Source: Anas platyrhynchos
Taxonomy: Eukaryota; Chordata; Aves; Anseriformes; Anatidae
Assembly (NCBI RefSeq): GCF_047663525.1
Contig: NC_092617.1
Coordinates: 5,212,501-5,276,500, forward strand
DNA: 64,000 nt
Reading direction: 5' to 3'
Part shown: positions 54,129 to 54,480 of the stretch, one piece after another
How the letters are laid out: each line of letters begins with the position of its first letter
Numbering within the stretch: position 1 is the stretch's first letter
The notes under the pieces: generated by a model
The model's input: the letters and a program-made list of their open reading frames with translations, nothing else
What the model was told of the DNA's origin: nothing
Databases searched by the model: none
Program-made: the position numbers and the translations under genes

Positions 54129-54480
54129 TGTGGGGCGCTCTGCCTGCTGCTCGCCTTCGCCTGACTGTGCACTGCTGCCAACGGTGCTAGAGTAAAATGT
54201 GAAGACTGCTCAGATGGCAGTGATGACAGTGCTTGTGTGAAGAAGATGTGTACTGAATCTGACTTTGTGTGCATAGATATCAATAAAGTGTGTAACCAGC
54301 AGAGAGACTGCAAGGACTGGGGTGTTGAGCCCCTGAAGGAATGCAACATAAATGAATGTGACTGTCCAGCTGGGAAACTGTGGAGTTAGTGATGAATGCC
54401 AAAACCCTGGTATCTGTAGTCAAATCTGTATCAACCTGAAAGGCTATCAGATGAATCCTGCTACAGGAACCTGGAAAGGG
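54129..54480 (+). pseudogene. Captured VLDL-receptor-like cDNA fragment inside provirus A
   Basis: Frame at 54135-54386 (one TGA at 54162): CGALCLLLAFA, a signal-peptide-like core; VKCEDCSDGSDDSACVKKMC and ESDFVC, LDLR class A modules; CIDINKVCNQQRDCKDW and EPLKEC, a later class A module; NINECDCPAG, a shortened EGF module. In another frame at 54391-54480: DECQNPGICSQICINLKG, then YQMNPATG, the next EGF module. From family knowledge this order fits VLDLR best among LDLR, LRP8 and VLDLR. Modules are joined without introns but with internal losses that cut through the middle of modules. Sense to the provirus. Provirus B lacks it. It cannot make a receptor now; a role is not implied. Confidence 0.8.

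Follow-up and report, generated by a model that had tools for sequence, protein, structure and literature searches.

The window analysed here, a 64,000-nucleotide stretch of the mallard (Anas platyrhynchos) genome (NC_092617.1, positions 5,212,501 to 5,276,500; part of contig C31), contains an endogenous retrovirus (ERV) that carries an intronless remnant of the host gene for the very-low-density lipoprotein (VLDL) receptor, VLDLR. Longer copies of the same receptor sequence lie elsewhere in the genome in class II, alpharetrovirus-like elements, where they form open reading frames (ORFs) with part of the viral envelope protein Env. That VLDLR was captured and fused to Env is nearly certain, and a history of capture, fusion, amplification and decay is the best supported part of our account, built on a spliced origin, a shared 3' boundary, in-frame fusion, target-site duplications, many copies and nested deletions. 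That the product displayed an uncleaved, membrane-anchored receptor ectodomain is predicted from sequence and stands at even odds. For the explanation as a whole (capture, fusion, display and later carriage as a passenger) we estimate a probability of about 0.5.

The insert occupies window positions 54126-54468 on the + strand, between two long terminal repeats (LTRs), and encodes VLDLR peptides in receptor order. A first-pass annotation, made from the sequence alone, had proposed here a VLDLR-like cDNA derived from mRNA and captured by a retrovirus in sense orientation. The identity, the orientation and the spliced source are borne out; the limits it gave (54129-54480) need adjusting, and the insert is not one open frame, with a stop in the signal-peptide frame and a 20-nt deletion that shifts the frame. 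The window copy is a non-coding relic that cannot encode a receptor. In searches against solved structures, the first piece of the insert matches VLDLR best (8ufb_V, E 4.9e-15), followed by LDLR (1.6e-8), and the second piece gives the same order (VLDLR 2.8e-7, LDLR 1.7e-6), as had been anticipated. Pfam reports a single class A match below threshold (E 0.0017), a weak signal because the class A (LA) modules are truncated. The three main blocks align at 94-97% identity with the VLDLR gene in this genome, and the signal-peptide core matches its exon 1 at 90%.

In order along the + strand, the insert comprises the exon 1 signal-peptide core (54126-54186, compared with host exon 1 in L039; it holds the in-frame stop and an extra deletion judged by eye), LA1 with a 66-nt deletion, spliced to the start of LA2 (54187-54273, from comparison with host exons), the end of LA8 spliced to the start of EGF-A (54270-54351, with ∼756 nt of host cDNA absent just before), the end of EGF-A (54352-54385, which follows a shared 60-nt deletion and carries the 20-nt frame-shifting one), and EGF-B with a 27-nt deletion (54386-54468), which ends at the capture boundary, host cDNA position 1214. 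A few Env-side bases of the original receptor-Env join follow (54469-54486), and the join sequence is the same as in loci L029-L042. The intact VLDLR gene lies on a different contig from the window (C35, about 29.065-29.079 Mb). Its introns separate exon 1, LA1, LA2, LA3, LA4-6, LA7, LA8, EGF-A and EGF-B, and a single open frame runs through its joined exons from LA1 to the first of the propeller (cDNA position 1 is the first base of the LA1 exon). Four of these junctions are crossed without an intron in the insert (exon 1/LA1, LA1/LA2, LA8/EGF-A and EGF-A/EGF-B), so the source was a spliced mRNA. A copy of the segment with introns and flanking VLDLR exons was looked for in the genome (1.26 Gb, 42 contigs) and not found.

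In the fullest copies in the genome, the eight class A modules and the two EGF modules are all present, at 97% identity to the host gene. Locus L047 covers host cDNA 1-1214 at 97.0%, with a frame-breaking 10-nt gap, and L029 and L033 have the same extent minus a 60-nt deletion. In 13 of 13 long-receptor copies (12 loci and L047) the match ends at host position 1214, inside EGF-B, and like sequence follows; this common 3' end points to one capture. The boundary rests on comparisons with host cDNA, the deletion alignment having used a host row that itself ends at 1214. The copies fall short of a full VLDL receptor, with class A and EGF modules only: the match breaks off ahead of the propeller, at position 1214 of 1402. 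Natural open frames run through the receptor (seven or eight class A modules and EGF) and then into the C-terminal part of avian gp85 (PF03708, above cut-off, positions about 185-226 of 246). Because the receptor stands directly before this part, VLDLR occupies the place of the N-terminal part of the surface subunit. The frames of L031 (632 aa) and L036 (715 aa) reach the membrane-spanning end, and that of L033 (598 aa) stops short of it. Among 13 loci, the four neighbouring places L035-L038 on C40 have no break between the signal peptide and the membrane span, and L031 has none between the class A modules and the membrane span. The L031 and L042 proviruses each have a 6-bp target duplication; the LTRs of L031 differ by 1 mismatch and 20 gap positions, those of L042 at 3 mismatches in 430 bases, and the primer sites of both look like the lysine type.

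When the Env part was used as a query, 28 proteins matched, of which 10 have VLDLR parts and 18 do not; 14 of the latter were aligned with L031 and 6 of the former. The CX6CC motif is present in 14/14 relatives without VLDLR and altered, with one cysteine gone, in the 4/4 fusion rows that cover it (L031, P0003, P0099 and P0121); three more are cut. A furin motif occurs in 12 of the 14 relatives, 90-95 residues before CX6CC in 11 of them; P0134 and P0135 have none, and P0126 has only one further upstream. The furin block is absent from the fusions, both in the alignment (L031, P0099) and on reading of 5/5 genome loci and L047; furin-like motifs elsewhere in P0099, P0122 and P0006 are in tails or unrelated sequence. 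With the block gone the fusion should stay a single chain, and since L047 already lacks it, its loss preceded the 60-nt deletion. In the Mergus protein P0001, the receptor and a gp85 stub lead directly into the membrane span.

The nested deletions lie at host cDNA positions 17-82 (66 nt), 447-563 (117 nt), 991-1050 (60 nt), 1073-1092 (20 nt) and 1161-1187 (27 nt), with an additional deletion of ∼756 nt from position 156 to 909. Every measured deletion is present in the window except the 117-nt one, whose site falls inside the 756-nt gap; the 66-nt and 756-nt gaps of the window rest on separate host-cDNA comparisons, the multiple alignment having failed locally there. Of the six lengths measured, all but the 20-nt one are divisible by three. 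The matches on either side of a join overlap, by 7 nt for the 60-nt deletion, by 4 nt for the 756-nt one and by 30 nt for the 117-nt one, where the class A modules involved resemble each other. We infer that such overlaps would result from template switching in reverse transcription; in-phase repeats would likewise favour in-frame losses.

The element that carries the relic in the window is of another type. Its 5' LTR (50614-51486) and 3' LTR (56008-56851) form a direct repeat on the + strand with 25 substitutions in 823 aligned sites (Kimura two-parameter distance 0.031), and its primer binding site, read at 51490-51507 on the same strand, is presumably of the tRNA-Pro type. The site motif recurs with small variation in 10/10 compared copies of this element type, with 4-bp target duplications in 3/10, 5-bp in 1/10 and none in 6/10, among them the window copy, where both LTRs are present and a duplication was looked for. 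The earlier label, gammaretrovirus-like, may suit this element type, given its primer site and the 4-bp duplications of 3/10 copies; it does not extend to the capturing element, which is class II. Nor was the capture made by the window provirus, as had been assumed: in the longer copies the receptor sits in an Env of alpharetrovirus-like type, and the element around it is class II, with different LTRs and a lysine-type site. LTR and primer site differ between the two types, and only 53357-54486, the receptor and ∼0.8 kb upstream, is common to both (71-84%), including a + strand viral leader block at 53357-54125 (71-84% to L031). Two loci, L027 and L028, combine the window's LTR type with a longer receptor part. 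They are the step before the window form: the receptor block first entered the second element type and collapsed afterwards.

A DNA search with the insert gave 545 candidates, of which 40 were scored; all 40 match it at 92-100%. The spliced LA3/LA4 junction (up to 2 mismatches) marks retro-copies, because the host gene cannot contain this pattern, and occurs at 159 genome places (77 + 82 by strand), with 0 in a reversed control. Recurrence of the junctions at other places, which the first-pass annotation had proposed to look for, is thus extensive, and a single capture confined to the window provirus is ruled out by this copy number, that of a many-copy family. C34, which makes up 1.3% of the genome, holds 39 of the 100 junction places listed; we infer that it is the W chromosome, and the mallard W is given as ∼45% ERV in the assembly paper (PMC11745021). 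In the stretches around 20 of the 40 scored places, 18 have the collapsed window form, and the other two, L027 and L028, retain a longer receptor part within this element type. LTR pair distances range from 0 to 0.051 for the window and nine of these 20 places, the other 11 having an LTR cut off, missing or out of place. VLDLR copies also form a local array on C40 (648932-676777), and a near-identical pair in opposite orientation lies at 3.616 and 3.677 Mb on C34; both suggest that copies arose by local duplication as well as by retrotransposition.

A second host gene, ZNF365, has entered one subfamily. Loci L041 (C34:14330000-14337500) and L042 (C8:318000-325500) are of the same element type, 96% identical over 5.8 kb, with unbroken frames of 1299 and 1270 residues, respectively, in which Gag, ZNF365, VLDLR and Env follow one another in one frame. 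Pfam finds Gag_p24, Gag_p24_C, class A modules, EGF and gp85 on L041, and two zinc-knuckle-like motifs were seen there by eye. A search with the segment between Gag and VLDLR returned ZNF365 of many birds among the matches listed (best 120 of 378). The segment aligns from the first Met of ZNF365, with 136/164 residues identical to the Gallus protein and internal deletions, and the public Anas 'zinc finger protein 365' P0145 continues into proviral sequence.

The family is present in several duck genera. The best 120 of 3336 proteins matched by L033 were listed; the eight best are all from ducks (Mergus octosetaceus, Anas zonorhyncha, A. platyrhynchos and Aythya fuligula), Cairina moschata and A. 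acuta appear lower, and class A and gp85 domains occur together in 5 of the 120. The Env join is found in 11 of the 17 duck models read, including Anas, Aythya, Mergus and Cairina, and among these 17 the Cairina model alone retains a complete EGF-A. The single goose protein examined, from Anser brachyrhynchus, is an ordinary VLDLR, and the best 120 of 3336 do not show absence in geese. Two VLDLR sites distinguish duck and goose from five other birds, and at both the ERV copies have the waterfowl residue, so the captured gene came from waterfowl. Duck models named 'VLDLR-like' or ZNF365 (P0001-P0008, P0011, P0021, P0145) are proviral or run into provirus, a possible pitfall for studies of duck egg traits that take VLDLR as a marker.

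These findings suggest the following course of events. A class II, alpharetrovirus-like ERV of waterfowl copied the host VLDLR mRNA, most likely by template switching, taking up the signal peptide, LA1-LA8, EGF-A and EGF-B. The copied receptor took the place of the N-terminal part of the surface subunit of Env, giving a VLDLR ectodomain joined to the gp85 end and the transmembrane subunit. An uncleaved, anchored receptor is expected because the cleavage block and one CX6CC cysteine are gone; it would bind VLDLR ligands on particles or infected cells and would probably not act as a membrane-fusion protein. The window insert would be a passenger from a later stage, when a collapsed form without coding capacity entered a tRNA-Pro-type element and multiplied along with it.

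Several observations weigh against this account. Only some of the 13 loci are unbroken, the others being split, shorter or of the Gag type, and several copies are broken. In the two frames checked, L033 and L036, there is no in-frame Met upstream of the signal peptide; public models P0005 and P0011 begin with a Met just upstream of it, and a translation start by splicing from the gag leader, as in alpharetroviruses, is possible. The losses of the furin block and of CX6CC may be decay and not a changed role. Amino-acid change between copies is near neutral once transition bias is modelled: pN/pS is 0.20-0.40 from host to copy and 0.23-0.66 from copy to copy, which first resembled constraint, and simulation with the observed transition bias gave p values of 0.01-0.13 in five comparisons of host with copy and of 0.04-0.71 in eight between copies. 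Strong purifying selection was therefore dropped, and the keeping of frames is only suggestive because loci were picked by score.

The main rival is a neutral passenger: capture would only have disabled env, the elements would have retrotransposed with the help of proteins provided in trans, and the receptor part would never have had a role. The near-neutral change, the many internal deletions and the continued amplification of the collapsed window type (LTR distances down to 0) agree with such a course; set against it are the five of six deletions in multiples of three, the frames that stay unbroken through the receptor to the membrane span and the stem changes common to all covering copies relative to the host (5 silent, 2 amino-acid), which are too few to test. 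We regard a neutral passenger as having somewhat less than an even chance. A processed pseudogene, genomic duplication or assembly chimera, for which the missing introns alone would suit a copy made by a long interspersed nuclear element, is practically eliminated: the insert has no mRNA 3' end with poly(A), ends inside EGF-B and continues into Env sequence, lies inside LTR elements, two of them with 6-bp target duplications, and shows the same join in many genome copies and in protein models of other duck genera.

Other roles can be imagined for a displayed receptor. As a decoy, the fusion or a soluble form would absorb viruses that use VLDLR-type receptors and so shield the host or a resident provirus. 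LDLR-type modules are receptors for some viruses (VLDLR for Semliki Forest virus, PMC11666578), and the predicted fusion would be anchored and not fusogenic; the copy number, however, is better explained by element spread than by host retention, and we consider a decoy unlikely. In reverse entry, VLDLR-displaying particles would enter cells bearing a VLDLR-using viral glycoprotein, much as laboratory receptor-bearing vectors enter Env-expressing cells by 'fusion in reverse' (PMC12030895); here no partner glycoprotein is known and a second virus is required, which makes this very improbable. A further reading of the display account is that the virus exchanged its receptor-binding domain for the yolk receptor and rides yolk uptake into the germ line: VLDLR-displaying particles or infected follicle cells would bind VLDL and vitellogenin, and oocyte VLDLR would take up the multivalent cargo. 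In the chicken, VLDLR serves as the vitellogenesis receptor of the oocyte (PMC3162882), and ZAM, an endogenous retrovirus of insects, needs yolk traffic to reach the oocyte (PMC1524798). Such a route would explain a protein that binds without needing to fuse, together with the large germ-line copy number; we hold it to be doubtful.

A second, related element without VLDLR lies on the - strand (57415-63070); no VLDLR match was found in it, and at the equivalent place it has a different ∼1.25-kb stretch (60125-61376), unlike the insert region of the first element, in which the ORF tested has no Pfam match. Ten ORFs of the two elements gave no Pfam family above cut-off, a hydrophobic ORF at 55522-56028 in the first giving sub-threshold matches only; tblastn of the window element found no Gag, Env or ZNF365 remnants, and no match in an Rfam scan reached the gathering score. 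Positions 55302-55691, a 3' portion of the first element, are partly repeated on the - strand at 15456-15981 and 30222-30695 (73-77%). The 5' flank of the element (50301-50614) matches repeats at 20552-20865 and 26391-26699 (92-93%), and the 3' flank matches other repeats; with unlike flanks and no target duplication, the window copy may be rearranged.

Capture of host genes by retroviruses is well known; replacement of the Env receptor-binding part by a lipoprotein receptor appears to be new. The first-pass annotation had supposed that such a capture in an ERV was undescribed, and the literature searched, which leaves most subscription papers outside, held no report of it, nor of an ERV frame that joins two host genes. 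Neither VLDLR nor lipoprotein is mentioned in the main text of a three-genome survey of duck ERVs (PMC11067759), or in the mallard assembly paper (PMC11745021). The copies run from an almost entire capture down to a collapsed relic that lies in another element type, so that the history of a captured gene can be followed within a single genome. As the receptor is that of yolk uptake in birds, it also raises a germ-line route that can be tested.

Acute transforming retroviruses likewise carry spliced cDNA of a captured gene, an oncogene, sometimes fused to Gag, in a defective provirus; the duck elements differ in forming a many-copy germ-line family and in having captured a lipoprotein receptor. 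The fusion resembles alpharetrovirus Env (gp85/gp37) in its gp85 C-terminal part and membrane-spanning end, and departs from it in having VLDLR for the receptor-binding N-terminus, no furin block and an altered CX6CC. As in the 'fusion in reverse' vectors, a cell receptor takes the place of the viral attachment protein on display; those are laboratory constructs (PMC12030895), whereas the duck case is a natural gene fusion known from its sequence. The closest natural counterparts are crocodilian ERVs that captured KIT-ligand (CrocERV29) and nectin3 (CrocERV31), where host mRNA was also captured and amplified in an ERV lineage and nectin3 replaces env (PMC4299795); in the duck family, by contrast, VLDLR is fused in frame to the remaining Env, and one subfamily adds ZNF365.
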